A stretch of DNA of 64,000 nt, taken from NCBI GenBank assembly GCA_001657315.1, contig LYSV01000024.1, positions 1-64,000 on the forward strand, read 5' to 3'. This stretch comes from Flammeovirgaceae bacterium BBD 1991-12 (GTDB taxonomy: Bacteria; Bacteroidota; Bacteroidia; Cytophagales; Cyclobacteriaceae). Within the stretch, counting starts at the first letter, position 1. Each line of letters starts with the position of its first letter. A model generated the notes under the pieces. That model ran no database searches, was not told the origin of the DNA, and saw only the letters and a list, made by a program, of their open reading frames with translations. Of this stretch, positions 7,388 through 40,244 are shown piece after piece. The translations under genes and the position numbers were made by a program.

Positions 7388-9793
7388 TTAATCGTACCAA
7401 AGTCCCTGTTCTCTTTTGTCAAACCTCGGTCTGCGCACCTTTTCCTTCAGGTGTTGAGGTTGGCCTTCATTTTTTCTAAACAATTTTGCCCACAAAAGTC
7501 TCAAATTGAACATCCCTTTTCTAAATTCATTTGAATCATTTTTTCCGCTGGCATATTTAAAGCTGGGATGCCGGTCCTTGATAAACTTTTTCGACATTTT
7601 GACATTGCCCTGATAATTGCTGGCACGTATTGACGCCCGTGATGGACCGGTGCCTTTCAGTGATCCGTCGGCTGCATTGGGTTTTTTGGAATACCTCCAT
7701 GTGCGCTTTAGGTTCCCGTGATAGTTGCGTATTCTCAAATAGCTACGGCCGGGGGCGCGGGCTTTCAGTGCCTCATCTGCTGTGGATCTGTTTTTGACAT
7801 ACCTGAACCCTCTTTTTTGAAAACCCTGAAAATTTGCGCTGAGTCTTTCATTTTTGGCTGGTTCCTTTACTTTCAGTGCTTCATCTGCTGAGTTGGGATT
7901 CTTGTGGTAATTTGCAGATAGCCTGGTTTTTCCGGTATAATTCGAAGCCCTTTTGCTTTCTGAAGAGGGCCCTTTCTGTTTTCTTTTTGTCCGCCCTTTC
8001 CATAGGGCAATATCAAAGTCCTGGAATCCAAGGTTGTCCCTTGTGATAGGCTGACCTTTGTTATTCCAGTTATCCCTGCTCACACTACCCCCACCCTTAA
8101 AAACCTTTGATGCTTTAATATTACCCTGGAACCGTGCTACATTGTTATCCTGCCGGGTGAACCCCTTTCCCTGAATGGGCTTGCCACGGTTGTTCCAGTT
8201 GTTTCTATTGACTGTACCCCCGCTTTTGGCTGGTTTGCGTCCCTTTACATTGCCCTGGAAGCGGGCTATACTGTTGTCCTGTCGCGTTGTACCCTTCCCC
8301 TGTACGGGTTTACCGCGGTTGTTCCAGTTCTTTCTGCTCACGCTGCCCCCGCCTTTCGCAAGGCGGCGCCCTTTCACGTTACCCTGGAACCGTGCTACGC
8401 TGTTATCCTGCCTTGTTACACCCTTACCCTGTATAGGTTTGCCACGGTTATTCCATTTGTCTCTGCTTACACTACCACCCCCCTTAAATACCTTACCTCC
8501 TTTTACATTACCCTGGAACCGCGCTACCCGGCTGTCCTGGCCAGTTATGCCACGTCCCTGTATGGGCTTGCCGGAGTTATTCCATCTCTTGCCACTGATG
8601 CTGCCTCCTCCCTTGAAAGGCTTCCTGCTTTTTACATTACCCTGGAAGCTTATGGCCCTGCGGGTGCCTGCCCCTGGAGGTTTCCTTGCACCAGGAGCTC
8701 TTCCAGCCCGCTCCTGTCGCCGGCCGGCAGACTTATAGCCTCCTCCTTTCAGCTTGCCCCTAAAAGCCCTGTCACCCTTTCGTTTCCCTTTTGGATAGGC
8801 CTGGAACCGTGGGCTGGTAAAATCCGGCCTTTCAGATGTACGTTTTCTAAGTTTGTGACCGGAGATATCATTCTTCCATGCTCTTTCCCGCGCACGTGTT
8901 GCCGTTCTGAAGCCTCCCAAAGCCCTGCCGGAATATGCCTTATCGCCCCGGGCACCTTTCCGGCTGAAACGTATCGGCCGCTGGGTCTGGATCACGGGCC
9001 TTTCCACGGTTCTCTTGGTCCTGAAAGGTTTTCCTGTGATATCACCTTTATGTGCCCTCTCCCAGGGGGTCTGCCTTCTAAAAGCAGAATACGGGCTTTT
9101 TCCTTTTCTGATACGCGCCGTTCCGGAGACAGATCGTGGTACGATCCTCCGCCTTTTTACAGGCCGTTCCGGATCGCGTGTAATAGAACGCCTGGAACCG
9201 AAAACCTGTCCGTACCGGGCCTTGCCGGTGAACGTGGTACGACGCGACCGGGTGGATATGGCCCTGCCTGCGGCATTGCCCCGCCAGGCCCGTTCACCAC
9301 GTCTTGAGGCCGACCGCGGTGAGGCTGCTATTCCGCCGGCGCGTTCCCTGTTCCTTCGGGAAAACCTTGGGGCGACTGACCGGGCTCTGAATCTTGAACC
9401 CTCACTACGACTTGGTTTTCGGGTGTAGGATTGCGCTTCTGCCCTTCCGGCCGTGGACCTTCTCGGTGACGTTTTTGTGATCACCTTTCTTCCGGTAATA
9501 TCTCCTCTGTGCGCTTTTTCTCCTTGTCTGGACCGGGTTTTGAAGCGGGCCTCACGTAGCTTACGATTGTTGGACCTGCCTTTATCACCACGTCGTTTCA
9601 GCCTTCGGTTGGACTTGTTCTTCTTTTCGTTGGTCTTTTCAAAGAGTGATTTCCTTTTTTTCTGCTGCTGTTGCTCCTGTGCCTGCAGGGTAGGGACAGA
9701 GATCTGGCTTAGTAAAAAAAGCAAGAGCATAGCGCAAACTGCTTTTAAACAGGCTTTTGGTAATTTTCTTCTTATGGAAAAAGGGCTGGCCAA
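7388..9793 (-). CDS. Secreted, highly basic protein with three kinds of internal repeat
   Basis: I do not recognise this 801-residue protein. A signal peptide (residues 1-39, hydrophobic core AMLLLFLLSQ, cut after LQA) is followed by a Lys/Arg-rich stretch. Residues 90-351 carry six loose copies of a motif like GDRAFRGxLxG. Residues 381-595 are five 43-residue tandem repeats of the type FQGNVKG, then GGGSVS, WNN and GKPIQGKG. Residues 625-765 hold three or four longer repeats containing ADEALK and KNPN-type words. It is overwhelmingly basic, low in acidic residues, and likely disordered or polyanion-binding (surface polysaccharide or DNA). It is followed after 3 nt by ytxJ. The proline-rich frame opposite it is a shadow. 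Confidence 0.75.
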   Translation of the reverse strand: MASPFSIRRKLPKACLKAVCAMLLLFLLSQISVPTLQAQEQQQQKKRKSLFEKTNEKKNKSNRRLKRRGDKGRSNNRKLREARFKTRSRQGEKAHRGDITGRKVITKTSPRRSTAGRAEAQSYTRKPSRSEGSRFRARSVAPRFSRRNRERAGGIAASPRSASRRGERAWRGNAAGRAISTRSRRTTFTGKARYGQVFGSRRSITRDPERPVKRRRIVPRSVSGTARIRKGKSPYSAFRRQTPWERAHKGDITGKPFRTKRTVERPVIQTQRPIRFSRKGARGDKAYSGRALGGFRTATRARERAWKNDISGHKLRKRTSERPDFTSPRFQAYPKGKRKGDRAFRGKLKGGGYKSAGRRQERAGRAPGARKPPGAGTRRAISFQGNVKSRKPFKGGGSISGKRWNNSGKPIQGRGITGQDSRVARFQGNVKGGKVFKGGGSVSRDKWNNRGKPIQGKGVTRQDNSVARFQGNVKGRRLAKGGGSVSRKNWNNRGKPVQGKGTTRQDNSIARFQGNVKGRKPAKSGGTVNRNNWNNRGKPIQGKGFTRQDNNVARFQGNIKASKVFKGGGSVSRDNWNNKGQPITRDNLGFQDFDIALWKGRTKRKQKGPSSESKRASNYTGKTRLSANYHKNPNSADEALKVKEPAKNERLSANFQGFQKRGFRYVKNRSTADEALKARAPGRSYLRIRNYHGNLKRTWRYSKKPNAADGSLKGTGPSRASIRASNYQGNVKMSKKFIKDRHPSFKYASGKNDSNEFRKGMFNLRLLWAKLFRKNEGQPQHLKEKVRRPRFDKREQGLWYD
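8009..8653 (-). repeat. Five 129-nt in-frame tandem repeats
   Basis: These repeats encode the five 43-residue units of the basic protein. The nucleotide copies have diverged while keeping the reading frame and the motifs FQGNVKG, WNN and GKPIQGKG. That pattern points to selection on the protein rather than a recent DNA expansion. Confidence 0.75.
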
Positions 9794-34662: not shown

Positions 34663-35313
34663 ATGGAAAAATTCTGTTTTTTTCTCATATCTGTTTCTAT
34701 GGTTTGTAGTGCAAAAGCACAATCAATCATAGTACGTCCGGATGGAACACACTCGATCGGGATCAATCATGGAACTACCACAACGGTCATTAATCCGGAC
34801 GGGACGCACTCGATTGGTATCAACCATGGAAATACAACGACTGTAGTCAACCCGGACGGAACCCATTCTGTCGGAGTCAGGCACGGAAGCACTAAAACAG
34901 TGATCAACCCGGATGGGATGCACTCAATTGGTATCGACCATGGAACTACCACAACAGTTGTCAGCCCATACTGGCCACGCCGGACTGGAATTCATCATGG
35001 TAGAGCCACTGGTATTGAATTGTTTTCCAGAAAGGATGATCTGGTTTCACATGCGAGACTGGATTCTTTATTTTCGATAAATTCAACGGGATACAGAGAA
35101 GAACGACTTAAGCTTAAGGTGCTGGGACGGCTGAAAATCATAAACAGGGAAGAATACCGAACATTGAAAGCTCAAAACCTGAATGATCCGTTGGAAACAA
35201 ACACAAATAAGGCAAACCGGATTTTTGATTTACATCAACAATGGAAATCAAAACAATTGACCGATGCTGAATTTTTCCTGAAGAGGCAGGAGATAATCAA
35301 TGACAACCTTTGA
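34663..35313 (+). CDS. Secreted protein with 19-residue tandem repeats and a SHOCT-like tail
   Basis: The 216-residue protein begins with a signal peptide (cut after AKAQ). Residues 23-98 hold four 19-residue repeats of the form NPDGTHSIGINHGTTTTVV with only a few substitutions, plus a degenerate fifth copy to about residue 117. The C-terminal part (about 125-216) is helical and ends with a SHOCT-like segment (LHQQWKSKQLTDAEFFLKRQ). The repeat resembles short beta-strand hairpins with His, Asp and Thr at fixed positions, which could bind metal or form a beta-roll. I do not recognise the family and cannot assign a role. Confidence 0.75.
   Translation: MEKFCFFLISVSMVCSAKAQSIIVRPDGTHSIGINHGTTTTVINPDGTHSIGINHGNTTTVVNPDGTHSVGVRHGSTKTVINPDGMHSIGIDHGTTTTVVSPYWPRRTGIHHGRATGIELFSRKDDLVSHARLDSLFSINSTGYREERLKLKVLGRLKIINREEYRTLKAQNLNDPLETNTNKANRIFDLHQQWKSKQLTDAEFFLKRQEIINDNL
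34729..35013 (+). repeat. Four to five 57-nt in-frame tandem repeats
   Basis: The repeats encode the 19-residue units of the secreted protein. Asp codons occur exactly 57 nt apart (residues 27, 46, 65, 84). The copies are close at both DNA and protein level, so copy number could change by slippage or recombination. Confidence 0.8.
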
Positions 35314-35458
35314 TGGTGATGGTTCCTGCGCTTAGTAAAACCATAATATTTACATTAATAATTAGTATGCCCTGAATACTTTGATGCTATAGGCGGATCT
35401 CTCCGAATATTAAATGCCTATGCAGGTGCTGTAGCTTTGCTAGCTTAGGTTTCTGTGA

Positions 35459-35722
35459 TTGAATCGATGGCGGGAAGAGCATATCACAGCCGGCAACGCC
35501 ATTACGTATGGCGATCTGGTGATGCAGTACATCAAACTGAATGAATCCAACAAACCGTTTGAGAAAATACCGCATGGGCGCTACATCAACTTTCTTTCTG
35601 ACTATCTGGCTGGTGAGAAGGGAGCTACCAAAGAAGAGGCGATCGGGGCCTGGGAGCAACTAAAAGAACTGGACATCCCTAAGGACTACGATAGGTGGGT
35701 AAAGCATACTACGAGTTACTAA
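35459..35722 (+). pseudogene. 5'-truncated remnant of a Bacteroidota SAP-like family gene
   Basis: The 87-codon frame reads WREEHITAGNAITYGDLVMQ, HGRYINFLSDYLAGEKGAT and EEAIGAWEQLKELDIPKDY. I associate this pattern with the C-terminal half of longer Bacteroidota proteins that start with a SAP-type DNA-binding motif. Only the C-terminal part is present. A stop codon lies directly upstream of the weak TTG start, and the 145 nt before it show no matching N-terminus in any frame. It is more likely a decayed remnant than a working gene. The family link is from memory and needs checking. Confidence 0.4.
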
Positions 35723-35732
35723 AACTTGACCA

Positions 35733-35978
35733 ATGTCCACGTCTTTTTGCGAGCCTCATTACAGTGCTGACTACGATCAACAAAGCACTGACAGATGTCA
35801 ATACTGTTTTACAGGTGCCAATAAAGGACTAACAGGCATCCCCGTCACTTTGCAGTGGTCATTACGCCTCTTACAGACACCAATACAGTTTTACAGATCA
35901 CCACACACTACTGACAGGCGTCAATATCATTTTTCAGACGTCAATACGCCGCTGACAGATGTCAATATCGTTTTGCAG
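35733..35978. repeat. 41-nt non-coding tandem array of alternating 21- and 20-nt half-units
   Basis: Five exact-period 41-nt units lie at 35774-35814, 35815-35855, 35856-35896, 35897-35937 and 35938-35978. Each splits into a 21-nt and a 20-nt half that both end in CAG and share TCAATA near the start. Two further half-units precede them at 35733-35773. The last unit carries ACGTCAATACGCCGCTGACAG, written here as its 21-nt half minus nothing but read as ACGTCAATACG plus CCGCTGACAG. TGACAGATGTCA, a palindrome with 2-nt centre, spans the junction in two units. A 41-nt period cannot keep a reading frame, so the array is not coding. It ends 81 nt before the gene at 36060. Confidence 0.85.
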
Positions 35979-36059
35979 AACCTTAAAATAGAAGAGGGAA
36001 AAGTTCACCTTTTGCGGAAAATTAATTTTCTTAGTTGATTAACCAAATTAATATATCCG

Positions 36060-36707
36060 ATGAATAACCGACAGGAAATGTATGTAAACATGTTCAGGGA
36101 CACTGCCAGCTTTGGCGACTCCCATGCAAACACTCTCAACCCGTACCCCTTTTTCGAGGAGCATCTCAACGAGCTCACGACCAACATCACACAGATCGAA
36201 AAGCTGGACCAGGAATCATCCATAGATATCACCGGTATAGCAGCCGACAAGGAGCGGCTGGAGGACGAGCTGGCTGCCGCTGCGGTAGGAGCCATCAGCA
36301 GGTTGAAGATGCTGTACAAAAAGGAGCAGAACCAGCAGAAGTTCAACGAGATTGACTTCACCCGCTCGCAGATAGAGCATGTACCGGACAATACGCTGAT
36401 GACCCGTGCGGCCATAGTCAGCGACCACTTGGAGGCCAGCAACGGGGCCGACCCCATGTACGGCATTACTGAAGAACGTGCCGCTACGCTGAAAACCCTG
36501 ACCGGGCAGTACCGCACAGTATTGCGCTCTCCGCAGGAGGCCATTAAGGCCCGCAAGTATACCAATGAAGATCTGCAGGGGCTCATCGACCTCACGCTGA
36601 AAGAAACTTTGAAAGAAGGCCTCGATCTGGTGATGGAGATAGCCGCAGAGGACCACCCCGACCTTTACCGGCAGTATACAGATGCCCGTAAGCTGAGTAA
36701 GGTGTAG
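36060..36707 (+). CDS. Uncharacterised helical protein (215 aa)
   Basis: This is an all-alpha, charged, cytosolic-looking protein with no signal peptide. Visible segments include RQEMYVNMFRDTASFGDSHA, ITGIAADKERLEDELAAAAVGAI (about 58-80) and TLKETLKEGLDLVMEIAAED near the C-terminus, ending in YTDARKLSKV. I believe it belongs to a Bacteroidota-specific family of about 210-residue hypothetical proteins seen in several species, but I know no domain name. The tandem array 35733-35978 lies just upstream and a strong hairpin just downstream, so the gene and array may be one unit. No function is proposed. Confidence 0.7.
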   Translation: MNNRQEMYVNMFRDTASFGDSHANTLNPYPFFEEHLNELTTNITQIEKLDQESSIDITGIAADKERLEDELAAAAVGAISRLKMLYKKEQNQQKFNEIDFTRSQIEHVPDNTLMTRAAIVSDHLEASNGADPMYGITEERAATLKTLTGQYRTVLRSPQEAIKARKYTNEDLQGLIDLTLKETLKEGLDLVMEIAAEDHPDLYRQYTDARKLSKV

Positions 36708-36719
36708 GAAAGAAGTGTT

Positions 36720-36747
36720 ACAGCCTGCCTTTTTTTTGGCAGGCTGT
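36720..36747 (+). terminator. Perfect 10-bp hairpin with T8 loop
   Basis: ACAGCCTGCC (36720-36729) pairs fully with GGCAGGCTGT (36738-36747) around a loop of eight T. It starts 13 nt after the stop of the 215-residue protein gene. The T-run is in the loop rather than after the stem, so it is an unusual terminator or an RNA-stabilising element. Confidence 0.6.
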
Positions 36748-36837
36748 CATGATTCCAAAAGTTTGGGCTTGACAAAAAGACATAATCTGAACAAAGGTTC
36801 ACTCAGGTTGGGGACTGAATTACATTCCTGTTAGGAC

Positions 36838-37185: not shown

Positions 37186-37404
37186 ATGACCAAATTAGGA
37201 CTGTATCTATCAAAAAAATCAGCCAGCAAGGCCGAAATAGCCAAGAAAACGGGAATCAGTAAATCCCGGATCAGTGAACTCACCCTGAATCCATCAACTC
37301 AGTTAAGAGCATGGGAATTATATCTTATTGCTCTGGCCATTGATGTAGATCCAGGCGAAATGTTTAAGGATATATTTAGTGAGTTGAAATTAGAAAGCCA
37401 TTAA
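37186..37404 (+). CDS. XRE-family regulator, possible restriction-modification controller
   Basis: The 72-residue protein is one helix-turn-helix domain: LYLSKKSASKAEIAKKTGIS followed by KSRISELTLNPSTQLRAWEL, then LIALAIDVDPGEMFKDIF. Size and fold match C proteins that delay nuclease expression in type II restriction-modification systems, and DNA-methyltransferase and nuclease genes follow in the same direction. TTTAG/CTAAA repeats immediately upstream are its probable binding sites. The ATG start is 6 nt after the last CTAAA. Assignment as a controller is inference from context. Confidence 0.75.
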   Translation: MTKLGLYLSKKSASKAEIAKKTGISKSRISELTLNPSTQLRAWELYLIALAIDVDPGEMFKDIFSELKLESH

Positions 37405-37419
37405 AAAATTACTTTTCAA

Positions 37420-38058
37420 ATGAAATCTATCTTAGCTATTCACAAATTTGGACATTTATATAATACAGAGACTCAAAAACGTATCTTGCTGGAAGATGAT
37501 GCAAACATTTGTATTACTGTACAGAGGGAACATATATTGGAAAAAGATCCAAGTATAGCTCAAAAAAACGAACCAGTCGACTCTAAAACAAAATCCATCG
37601 AGTTACACACCAAATATGGTTACATAACTCCATATTGGTTAATCAAAAAAGCAGGAGAATCGTTATTCTTTAAGATTTCAGGGTTTGTGCCAAAAAGAAA
37701 TGGAGATGAGGCATTTTTACTGGAATTTCGATTGGAGTTGTTAGAAGATCTTTATATCTATAATAAGAAAGACCGCCCGGAAATGGCTCAACTTTTCCCA
37801 TGCAAATGTGCTATTCTTGAATGCCTAACGGACAATTTCGAATTTTTTGAGCCAGTACATGGTGATTCACTTAACAAAGCCAGAACAAAATTACACGAAT
37901 TGTACTTCAGCCGTGTAGTAAATCCGGCATCCAATGCATTTCTGCAGTTCTTCATCGATCGTGAATATGAGAATAGAAATAACAATCTAGCAGCTTTGAG
38001 ACTTGATATACAAAAGCTAAAACCAAAAAACAGGAAGGACAAACCAAGCAGTGCATAA
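37420..38058 (+). CDS. Unknown protein of the restriction-modification island (212 aa)
   Basis: I do not recognise this protein. It is AT-rich in coding, cytosolic, mixed alpha and beta, and opens KSILAIHKFGHLYNTETQKRI, with ISGFVPKRNGDEAFLLEFRL in the middle. LFPCKCAILECLTDNFEFF contains two nearby cysteines in a CxC arrangement, and the C-terminus is basic and helical. It starts 16 nt after the XRE gene and is followed by the methyltransferase gene after 84 nt, so it is probably co-expressed. It may be an accessory specificity or regulatory component of the island, but nothing in the sequence proves that. Confidence 0.6.
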   Translation: MKSILAIHKFGHLYNTETQKRILLEDDANICITVQREHILEKDPSIAQKNEPVDSKTKSIELHTKYGYITPYWLIKKAGESLFFKISGFVPKRNGDEAFLLEFRLELLEDLYIYNKKDRPEMAQLFPCKCAILECLTDNFEFFEPVHGDSLNKARTKLHELYFSRVVNPASNAFLQFFIDREYENRNNNLAALRLDIQKLKPKNRKDKPSSA

Positions 38059-38142
38059 GGAGAACATTTTATCGTTTAAGCAATGGCCTGTTTATGCGCA
38101 GCAACCAATTATGATGAATAAGAATTTACAATTTTTGTATGC

Positions 38143-39453
38143 ATGAACTTATTTAATGAAATAGCGGCCGAATACCGATCAAATAAGGTTAGAAAAGAAG
38201 ATAATGCCTTTCACTGTTGGTATAGGTTTGTGCTGTCTTATCCTCCACATCTTGTCAAACATTACCTGGAAAAGTTTAATATTGATCAGGACTCAATAGT
38301 GCTTGACCCGTTTAGTGGTACCGGCACAACACTAGTTGAGTCAAAGCTTAATAAGTTCAATTCTATTGGAATAGAAGCCAATCCAATAGCTCGATTTGCA
38401 ACAAAGACTAAACTTGATTGGGACATTAACACAAATGAATTGATAGACACCGCTTTGGACATTGCCAACAGACTGGATAAAAAGCTTGAACAGATCGGGA
38501 TAGACGATAAGTCACCAAATGATGACAATTCCAATATCATAGGATTGAGAACCCTGCCGGAAGCCAGTCAAAAGATTTTACTTAAGAACTCGATCAGTCC
38601 GGTCACACTACATAAGTCAATTCTACTGATTGAAGAAATAAAAAAGCTTAAGAATGAGAGGGTTAGGGATCATCTGCTTTTGGCTGGCCTGAAGACAATA
38701 ATCAGTGATGTCAGTAACCTTAGGTTCGGCCCGGAAGTTGGATTAGGGAGAATCAAATTAGATGCATCCATTATTGATCCATGGATAGCTAATGTCCATT
38801 TAACTTATAAAGACATTTCATCTCTTCCAATTCCGTTAAATGACATCGAATCTGAAGTTTTTCTTGGGGATGCAAGAGTTGCCAATCAATACTTGACTCC
38901 AAATTCTATTGCTGCGGTTATAACTTCGCCTCCCTATCCAAACGAAAAGGACTATTCAAGAACTACCCGATTGGAAAATGTGCTCGTTGGACTGGTCACT
39001 AATATGCAGGAATTGCGCGGGGTTAAAAAGACTTTTGTCCGCTCCAATACAAGAAGCGTTTACAAGGAAGATTCTGATCATCTTTATGTAAAAGATTTCA
39101 ATTCAATTCAATCTATTGCGAGGGAAATAGAAAAGAGAAGAATTGAGCAGAACAAGACTTCCGGATTTGAAAAAATGTATTCAAAGGTTACACTTCAGTA
39201 TTTTGGAGGAATGGCAAGGCATTTAAGTAATCTACGCAATAGCCTGGTCCCCGGGGCTAAACTTGCTTATGTGGTTGGTGACCAGGCATCTTATCTGAGA
39301 GTTATGATTAGAACGGGTCAACTCCTGGCCGAAATAGCAGAGTCACTCGGATATAGAGTCGTAGATTTAGAATTATTCAGGACTCGTTTTGCGACACGAT
39401 CAAAAGAGGAACTCAGGGAAGAAGTTTTATTACTTGAATACATGGGGGAATAA
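38143..39453 (+). CDS. DNA methyltransferase (N4-cytosine or N6-adenine)
   Basis: The 436-residue enzyme carries the SAM motif DPFSGTGTT at residues 55-63 and the catalytic motif TSPPYP at 261-266, as in site-specific amino-methyltransferases. Motif I comes before motif IV with about 200 residues between, an order in which the target-recognition part could sit in the middle. The TSPPY form favours N4-cytosine methylation but does not exclude N6-adenine. The nuclease gene follows 2 nt after the stop, which strongly suggests a type II restriction-modification pair. The recognition sequence cannot be read from the protein. Confidence 0.88.
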   Translation: MNLFNEIAAEYRSNKVRKEDNAFHCWYRFVLSYPPHLVKHYLEKFNIDQDSIVLDPFSGTGTTLVESKLNKFNSIGIEANPIARFATKTKLDWDINTNELIDTALDIANRLDKKLEQIGIDDKSPNDDNSNIIGLRTLPEASQKILLKNSISPVTLHKSILLIEEIKKLKNERVRDHLLLAGLKTIISDVSNLRFGPEVGLGRIKLDASIIDPWIANVHLTYKDISSLPIPLNDIESEVFLGDARVANQYLTPNSIAAVITSPPYPNEKDYSRTTRLENVLVGLVTNMQELRGVKKTFVRSNTRSVYKEDSDHLYVKDFNSIQSIAREIEKRRIEQNKTSGFEKMYSKVTLQYFGGMARHLSNLRNSLVPGAKLAYVVGDQASYLRVMIRTGQLLAEIAESLGYRVVDLELFRTRFATRSKEELREEVLLLEYMGE

Positions 39454-39455
39454 AG

Positions 39456-40244
39456 ATGTCCGGGAATAGATACAGCCAACTCATTGAAAAGATCTTTTTT
39501 GACAATTATAAGAAAGGAGATAAACAAGTTGAATTTCTTCGAACAGATATTGAGAAAGCTGCCAAAGCACTCAAAATTAGTCTCCCGAAAAATTTAGGTG
39601 ACGTCATTTACTCCTTTCGATTCAGAACAGAACTTCCTGATCGAATTCTAAAGTTGACACACGAAGATGAGGAATGGCTAATCAAATTGGCAGGAAGAAG
39701 CACTTATTGTTTCAGTCTGGAGCCCAAACTTGAAATAATTCCGAATAAGCATTTAACGCATTCAAAAATCCTGGATTCAACACCGGGGGTGATCAATAAA
39801 TATTCCCTGAGTGATGAGCAAGCTCTACTGGCGATACTCCGATACAACAGATTAGTTGATGTGTTTCTTGGAATAACATGTTATTCTCTCCAAAATCATC
39901 TTCGAACAACAGTGCCGGGACTTGGTCAGGTCGAAACCGATGAAGTCTATATAGGAGTTGATAAACGAGGTGCTCATTTTGTCATCCCCATCCAGGCTAA
40001 GGGTGGTACGGACAAACAAGGCAAGGTACAGATCGAACAGGATATTGAACTTAGCAAAAATAAGTTTCCTGGTCTTGTTTGCATCCCTGTTGCTGCTCAG
40101 TTTATGCAAGATGGTAAGATTGCATTATTTTCCTTCGAGCAGGATAAAACTTCAATCAGGATTACCTCAGAGAGACATTATGAACTTGTTAATTCTAATG
40201 ATCTAACCAATGAAGAACTCGAAAAATATCAAAAAAGAAAATAA
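39456..40244 (+). CDS. Putative restriction endonuclease, PD-(D/E)XK-like
   Basis: The 262-residue protein has no strong general match that I can name, but residues 160-182 read ETDEVYIGVDKRGAHFV then IPIQAK. That gives an acidic cluster (Glu160, Asp162, Glu163) about 17 residues before Gln180-Ala-Lys182, the spacing of PD-(D/E)XK nucleases with a QxK variant. It is translated 2 nt after the methyltransferase, so it is almost certainly the partner nuclease. The chain ends in a Lys-rich tail (EELEKYQKRK). Cleavage specificity is unknown. Confidence 0.75.
   Translation: MSGNRYSQLIEKIFFDNYKKGDKQVEFLRTDIEKAAKALKISLPKNLGDVIYSFRFRTELPDRILKLTHEDEEWLIKLAGRSTYCFSLEPKLEIIPNKHLTHSKILDSTPGVINKYSLSDEQALLAILRYNRLVDVFLGITCYSLQNHLRTTVPGLGQVETDEVYIGVDKRGAHFVIPIQAKGGTDKQGKVQIEQDIELSKNKFPGLVCIPVAAQFMQDGKIALFSFEQDKTSIRITSERHYELVNSNDLTNEELEKYQKRK

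Follow-up and report, generated by a model that had tools for sequence, protein, structure and literature searches.

In the window, which is the whole stretch of 64,000 nt analysed here, a tandem array of 41-nt units lies directly upstream of a gene for a 215-residue helical protein of an undescribed family (Table 1). The second copy of this gene and most of the examined homologues, many of them at 20–30% identity, also carry an upstream array. The result suggests an undescribed kind of gene that is paired with its own DNA docking array. In our interpretation, proteins bind at phased sites that are aligned along one face of the array DNA, and the most likely binder is the adjacent protein. This interpretation is judged to have an even chance of being correct, and binding has not been shown.

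Table 1. Features of the array locus in the window
Feature	Position	Strand	Basis
Two degenerate half-units before the regular array	35733..35773	+	By eye; the lax TRF row begins at about 35777
Five 41-nt units (ten half-units); proposed phased protein-binding sites (no binding data)	35774..35978	+	TRF, shuffles, second copy
Spacer between array and start codon; presumed promoter (none identified)	35979..36059	+	73% identical to second copy
Gene for a 215-aa protein; all-helical, undescribed family, pI 4.9	36060..36707	+	Library scans, profile, model
Perfect 10-bp hairpin with T8 loop; probably a terminator	36720..36747	+	Sequence

The array in the window and its second copy

The five units are exactly 41 nt each (35774–35814, 35815–35855, 35856–35896, 35897–35937, and 35938–35978). 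Their half-units alternate between 21 and 20 nt, and 15 of the 41 columns are invariant. The match fraction was 0.57 at lag 41, 0.67 at lag 82, and 0.61 at lag 123, against 0.24 and 0.21 at the off-period lags 40 and 42. The region 5' of the gene gave a z value of 13.9 against 40 dinucleotide shuffles. Tandem Repeats Finder (TRF) recovered the array at 35788–35979 with a period of 82 and a score of 188, and with laxer scores it gave a 41-nt row of 5.0 copies at 35777–35979. The exact 41-nt period over five units described in the initial annotation was confirmed. Its further details were only partly upheld. All of the ten half-units end in CAG as described, but the TCAATA said to be common to them is a consensus and not invariant. 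The two half-units placed ahead of the array are plausible by eye, yet they are degenerate. The sequence TGACAGATGTCA is not a strict palindrome as was supposed, because its arms TGACA and TGTCA are separated by the two nucleotides GA.

The gap between the array end and the ATG at 36060 is 81 nt, and the hairpin after the gene is perfect (arms 36720–36729 and 36738–36747, loop of eight T); both had been annotated correctly. The hairpin is probably an ordinary terminator. Across all loci, TANNTTT boxes were mildly enriched (40 of 116 against 25.8, s.d. 4.0, in base shuffles), and the fuller box TANNTTTG was found in 7 of 116 against 4.3 (s.d. 2.0).

The genome of the window (G000; 8.6 Mb in 282 contigs) belongs to the same order as Hymenobacter (Cytophagales, Bacteroidota by NCBI). 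The second copy (L010) is located on its contig C267. The protein is 79% identical, and the array is in the equivalent place and 79% identical to that of the window over 144 nt. Between the two loci, the identity is 0.66 in the array and 0.73 in the spacer, and 0.34–0.41 in the DNA further upstream. The dN and dS values between the two genes are 0.13 and 2.8 (saturated), respectively. The window gene therefore seems to be constrained by purifying selection. The genus contains a third relative (L015 of G012), which has a good array with a match fraction of 0.70 at lag 41, and the gene behind this array matches over its first 37 codons only. When the window unit was searched in its own genome, the second copy was the only other strong match, and the next one covered 23 nt with an E value of 0.007. 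The objection that the array might be a common dispersed repeat thus does not hold for the window unit, while it is partly valid for some relatives, which have orphan arrays.

Other features were observed in the window. Just upstream of the array, the gene at 34663–35313 contains a 57-nt repeat within its coding sequence, each copy encoding 19 residues. A 129/258-nt tandem repeat of about four copies with 70% matches is found at 8060–8647. At 37186–40244, there are in a row a Cro/C1-type HTH gene, a gene for 212 residues, an N6/N4-type DNA methylase gene, and a gene for 262 residues. This row looks like a restriction-modification locus with a controller, and the restriction role of the last gene is a guess.

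Occurrence of the array among homologues

A family profile built from seven sequences matched 36 of 390 genomes of the order, with 101 matches listed. The 75 strongest rows correspond to 74 loci, as two rows are one broken gene, and together with the G012 fragment they make up the order-level sample of 75 loci; the 26 weakest rows were left out of the array counts. With a wider profile, the family was detected in 18 of the 395 phylum genomes searched, and 14 of these 18 do not belong to the class of the window. The scan with the Hymenobacter orthologue alignment gave 23 named loci, among which L126 is 100% identical to the query from genus g34 of this order, and single-protein scans of genome contigs and viral contigs gave no match. 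Arrays were scored by the highest match fraction that a 120-nt stretch within 700 nt upstream reached at lags of 12–69, and the lags 20, 21, 41, 42, 61, 62, and 63 were counted as an array.

At the order level, 56 of the 75 loci had an array at a score of at least 0.55 and 61 at a score of at least 0.50. For the new loci at the phylum level, the numbers were 19 and 20 of 23. The raw counts there were 20 and 21 of 24 since row L213 repeats L068; L207 and L216 have too little upstream DNA, and matches without a locus were left out. The loci found with the PQLLE model (NF052641) likewise had 20–21-nt arrays upstream (16/21 and 19/21 at the two thresholds). The 22nd of these loci has too little upstream DNA, the misses are L238 and L240 (broken gene), and L235 coincides with L217 of the phylum set. 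The control consisted of 1120 overlapping 700-nt tiles from 400 kb, namely 20 stretches of four genomes, with lag 61 omitted. Seven tiles reached 0.55 and 18 reached 0.50. The seven tiles represent four places, of which three are apparently within coding repeats and one is an intergenic array without a family gene. The locus counts are not independent because many loci are close relatives; when the proteins were grouped by single linkage at 38% identity, at least one array was present in 16 of the 21 groups.

Homologues without any upstream array would have refuted the initial annotation. Such loci are a minority, 14 of the 75 order-level loci within 700 nt (L011, L017, L024, L025, L042, L043, L047, L048, L049, L053, L054, L061, L081, and L085). 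Among them, L011 and L017 have an array 1.1–1.3 kb upstream with other DNA intervening, L024 and L025 have it downstream, and in L049, L053, and L061 the best lag is 42 or 21 but weak (0.45–0.49). The arrays next to L081 and L085 were considered as displaced cognate arrays and rejected; they adjoin a gene that we take to be secDF-like and are orphans.

The position of the array is similar among the loci. For the order-level arrays, the median end position is –98 (quartiles –130.5 and –74.75) and the median length is 239 bp; the end is at –140 in the phylum set and at –123 in the PQLLE set, with a wider spread. In five of ten Hymenobacter pairs, the alignable block starts near the outer edge of the array (–315 to –341) and runs through the gene; three of these five pairs, formed by metallicola, nitidus, and sp. 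15J16, start at –323 to –327. Of the other pairs, three start at –406 to –489, one at –256 inside the array, and one at –86. Array, gene, and hairpin had been proposed to be one functional unit. The co-occurrence and the alignable blocks support this for the array and the gene, but not for the hairpin, which is only terminator-like.

Register and conservation of the units

The best lag was 21, 42, or 63 in 52 of the 56 order-level arrays. In 51 arrays, with the 41-nt group and L014 kept apart, the excess match was 0.326, 0.348, 0.315, and 0.294 at lags 21, 42, 63, and 84, respectively. No other lag from 3 to 89 gave an excess above 0.01, and nothing was seen at 10 or 11. Conservation within the unit was analysed in 43 arrays. 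The share of power at 10.5 bp was 0.254 against 0.101 in column permutations (z 11.4), and the 21-nt component of the information profile was 0.176. The largest component was 10.5 bp in 23 and 21 nt in 12 of the 43 arrays. The permutation null ignores the correlation between neighbours, which alone would favour the 21-nt component over 10.5 bp. Therefore, the ranking of 10.5 over 21 is stronger evidence than the null. The largest mean component at 10.5 bp indicates that the conserved positions of a unit tend to fall into two blocks separated by about one turn. Together with the two-turn register, these blocks support the proposal that selection acts on the DNA and that proteins could line up on one face. 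The blocks are a sign of constraint, without any indication of which protein binds. No general dyad symmetry was shown under stricter nulls: the reverse complement exceeded the complement-only score in 42 of 46 arrays and the reverse-only score in 16 of 46.

The unit sequences look unrelated between distant paralogues, even within one genome. The similarity of the units rises with the identity of the proteins (Spearman 0.39 over 990 pairs, which are not independent); where the proteins are less than 40% identical, it is close to background. Among close species, the three pairs of rigui, pini, and psychrotolerans are 0.93–0.96 identical unit by unit against 0.66–0.67 in a shifted register. Therefore, these units are older than the splits of those species. 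The values for metallicola and nitidus are 0.89 and 0.61. In other pairs, most of this unit-by-unit correspondence is lost (for example, 0.70 for aerophilus and ISL-91, and 0.70 against 0.65 shifted for rigui and perfusus), while the consensus persists. Because distant paralogues conserve only the two-turn spacing and not the sequence, the array could also be a structural DNA element (phased bending, strand opening, or a supercoil buffer) that is read by general nucleoid proteins and has no cognate protein. This explanation seems quite unlikely to us. Each locus holds its own consensus between related species, and neither this consensus nor the two blocks per unit would be needed for phased bending alone.

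RNA and coding potential of the arrays

In view of its location before the gene, the array could be transcribed and act as an RNA (guide, sponge, or leader), and such a role can be ruled out only by transcription data. The fold energy showed no average excess on either strand (mean z –0.3 over 32 folds). Four of the 32 folds, in three of 16 arrays, were below z –2, one of them at –5.9. The Rfam search of 35300–36800 gave no match above the gathering threshold; the only match was STAXI, far below its curated score (16.6 against 40.5 bits, E 0.69). A structured RNA was thus rejected as a candidate. As the conservation follows a 10.5-bp pattern, an RNA role of any kind is considered highly improbable.

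A hidden coding repeat was also examined, because units of 21 nt keep the frame and would give repeats of seven residues. The statement in the initial annotation that the period breaks any reading frame is correct for the 41-nt units, but the arrays of the relatives are mostly of 21 nt. At least one open frame on the gene strand was present in 42 of 55 arrays. However, open frames are nearly as common after column permutation (mean 1.27 against 1.11), unit conservation in the 43 arrays has no excess at 3 nt, and the arrays of L010 and L015 have no open frame of six and that of L009 has one. We consider the chance of a coding repeat to be close to negligible.

Arrays without a family gene

Some arrays are found apart from the gene. 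The unit of L011 has six relatives elsewhere in the window genome, some of which share flanks, and no family gene was present in the stretches fetched around them. The unit of one Hymenobacter orthologue group occurs away from the gene at a methylmalonyl-CoA mutase gene in six genomes, at parA in two, and at parB in one; these labels are our reading of the translations. A 28-base pattern of this unit was detected in 11 of 61 genomes of the genus. The mutase-locus arrays are gene-less 21-nt arrays in Hymenobacter-type genomes (L177, L179, L180, L182, L183, and L186). According to the reading of the open frames, three of the six are between convergent genes, so not all of the arrays are promoter elements. 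The similarity of the mutase-locus arrays to the gene-linked array of their own genome was 0.460, with a permutation mean of 0.457 and 239 of 720 permutations as good. This negative result argues against the simple picture of one protein keeping all arrays of a genome alike.

The orphan arrays bear on two other explanations. The first is that the array is a row of operators through which a transcription factor from another locus controls the gene. The promoter-like distance of the array would fit such a role, and the orphan arrays show that the unit can exist apart from the gene. On the other hand, the paralogues in one genome have unrelated units and each would need its own regulator, and the convergent genes around half of the mutase-locus arrays are not in favour of operators. 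This explanation is possible but unlikely. The second, a selfish or slowly mobile repeat that spreads with or without the gene and has no regulatory function, appears very unlikely. The length and position of the arrays are near-constant, the mutase-locus array has been kept in six genomes, and the proteins tried had no match in phage or plasmid collections. Its support comes from the relatives of the L011 array with common flanks and from genes adjoining the second copy L010, its relative L015, and L025, which are presumably REP-associated-transposase-like.

Several other arrangements were observed. In the window genome, two orphan 21-nt arrays (L147 and L148) are located 480 and 436 nt upstream of the copies of a duplicated gene, 89% identical in DNA over 777 nt, which we assume to be nucleotidyltransferase-like. 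At L011 (2270–3180), direct repeats about 330–350 nt apart, in three copies by eye, separate the family gene from its 21-nt array. At L017 (1–1494), another gene (445–1290), taken by us to be DNA-damage-inducible-like, lies between the 21-nt array (about 1–170) and the family gene, and the leader of this other gene recurs, as judged by eye, ahead of the family gene. At L206 (757–1197), there are 21 copies of a 21-nt unit with 98% match at lag 21. This row precedes a distant member with a fibronectin-III-like C-terminus and is probably a young array.

The protein family

The window protein was annotated as having no known domain, and the library scans agree (the lowest E values were 0.09 in Pfam and 0.038 in NCBIfam, and no PHROG matched at E ≤ 0.1). 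In the Pfam scan of 35 members, one real CarboxypepD_reg C-terminal domain was found, and the rest were single weak matches with a best E of 2e-4. No Rep-type match was obtained from Pfam for these 35 members or from NCBIfam for the window protein. The best E value in PHROGs for seven members was 0.005. A known anti-phage family was rejected, as PADLOC gave only weak one-member matches among 35 members (best E 6e-5). A phage or plasmid gene was likewise rejected: the window protein had no match in viral contigs, phages, or plasmids, and L030 had none in plasmids (72,556 plasmid records for both proteins). The NCBIfam matches of 11 members were all sub-threshold and to PQLLE. They came from five very distant ones of the ten members scanned besides the window protein, at no more than 36.4 bits with a cut-off of 80. 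A search with the PQLLE model itself matched 10 of 395 genomes, of which six were tallied above the cut-off, and five of its matches are in the window genome. PQLLE is a separate profile that does not match the window protein and gives no function.

The model of the window protein is all-helical with a mean pLDDT of 68.6 and a pTM of 0.49, and so is that of the H. psychrotolerans orthologue (L126) with 80.5 and 0.46. The latter, the only model searched, found no solved structure at E ≤ 0.001 (best E 0.86), and a known fold was thus not assigned. In the comparison of the sequence profile with the PDB, designed helical proteins ranked first (best E 0.0011). In hhalign, the first and second halves of the family profile could be aligned over their whole length with hardly any gaps, at a low probability of 10–55%. 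The Hymenobacter group mostly has a pI of about 9.

The Hymenobacter orthologues change fast (dN 0.09, dS 0.17 for rigui and pini). A neighbouring gene, which we assume to be mfd-like, is common to 12 of 22 Hymenobacter loci. Its protein identity is higher than that of the family gene (0.94 against 0.82), and its fourfold-site identity is lower (0.79 against 0.92). Transfer of the module between species had been considered from the high fourfold-site identity and was not accepted, as the neighbour gene shows that codon bias may explain part of it. When the neighbouring open frames of 122 loci were clustered (flanks of about 1.5–3 kb; neighbours not annotated singly), none was common to more than six loci. 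The one recurring in six loci was rejected as a partner because it reads as a common C-terminal secretion-type sorting domain.

Discussion

Phased repeats beside a gene are known from other systems. The iterons of plasmid replication origins such as R6K and RK2 are direct repeats of about 20–22 bp in helical phase, which adjoin the gene of their binding protein and take part in its autoregulation. The family arrays resemble them as helically phased direct repeats beside a gene, and their period of 20–21 nt is within the 17–22 bp expected for iterons. In contrast to iterons, there is no Rep domain, several copies with unrelated units exist in a genome, the two proteins tried have no plasmid match, and no binding data are available. 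The parC/ParR and tubC/TubR centromere iterons are phased repeats directly upstream of the gene that serve as operator and assembly site. The family has the same layout but no known DNA-binding domain and no neighbour family in more than six of 122 loci, and clustering of those neighbours within the flanks of about 1.5–3 kb revealed no motor gene (ParM, TubZ, or ParA) in an operon. As the defining proteins were not found, the family is not filed under either system. CRISPR arrays are also a repeat row beside a protein gene. The family arrays differ in having no invariant repeat with unique spacers, an exact 21-bp register, and a near-constant length; the 41-nt units are contiguous without spacers, and no Cas domain was found among the seven neighbouring window proteins scanned. 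A CRISPR-like array was therefore rejected. The initial annotation knew of no described system with such a layout. In the part of the literature accessible to our search, no description of these arrays or of the PQLLE family was found either.

Computation established the association of array and gene, the register, the two-block tendency, and the persistence of units in close orthologues, and it detected no general signal of RNA folding or coding. On this basis, we propose that array and gene would form one heritable module across Bacteroidota. The array would work as double-stranded DNA with about 10–12 binding sites, one per two helical turns, and each site would offer two recognition blocks about one turn apart. 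The bound proteins would then form a row on a single face of the helix, immediately before the gene. Since each paralogue has a unit sequence of its own, the most economical candidate for the occupant is the product of the neighbouring gene, acting in cis. The adjacent helical protein may thus assemble into a short nucleoprotein patch. This patch would regulate the gene itself and may have an anchoring or organising role for the DNA segment. Protein binding, the identity of the protein, self-regulation, and any structural role are inferences. Arguments against this reading are the absence of a recognised DNA-binding domain and of a matching solved structure for the one model searched, the acidic nature of the window protein (most members of the Hymenobacter group are basic), the 14 loci without a near array, the orphan arrays, and the negative trans-coevolution test. 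The missing evidence for a general dyad symmetry and the three of 16 arrays that fold better than shuffles on some strand also count against it.

A wider hypothesis can be put forward only tentatively, and we regard it as rather doubtful. The family may be phylum-wide, self-addressed DNA-coating proteins. The two weakly similar helical halves (hhalign at most 55%) would read the two blocks of the 21-bp unit, and about ten copies would assemble on a private array. The specificity of protein and array would change together in cis while the spacing remains fixed, which would give a large natural set of protein–array pairs. In this view, the orphan arrays dispersed on the chromosome would represent docking sites that are either older or additional.

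The finding links a protein family that is large and has no name to a precise DNA architecture, of which the spacing and not the sequence is conserved throughout Bacteroidota. Should the proteins prove to bind their arrays, this would be a new way to build nucleoprotein complexes on DNA. The loci would then also offer a natural collection of cognate pairs for deciphering a recognition code. Should the binder be a different factor, the arrays would still provide the first testable handle on genes for which no recorded function was found, including the PQLLE family.
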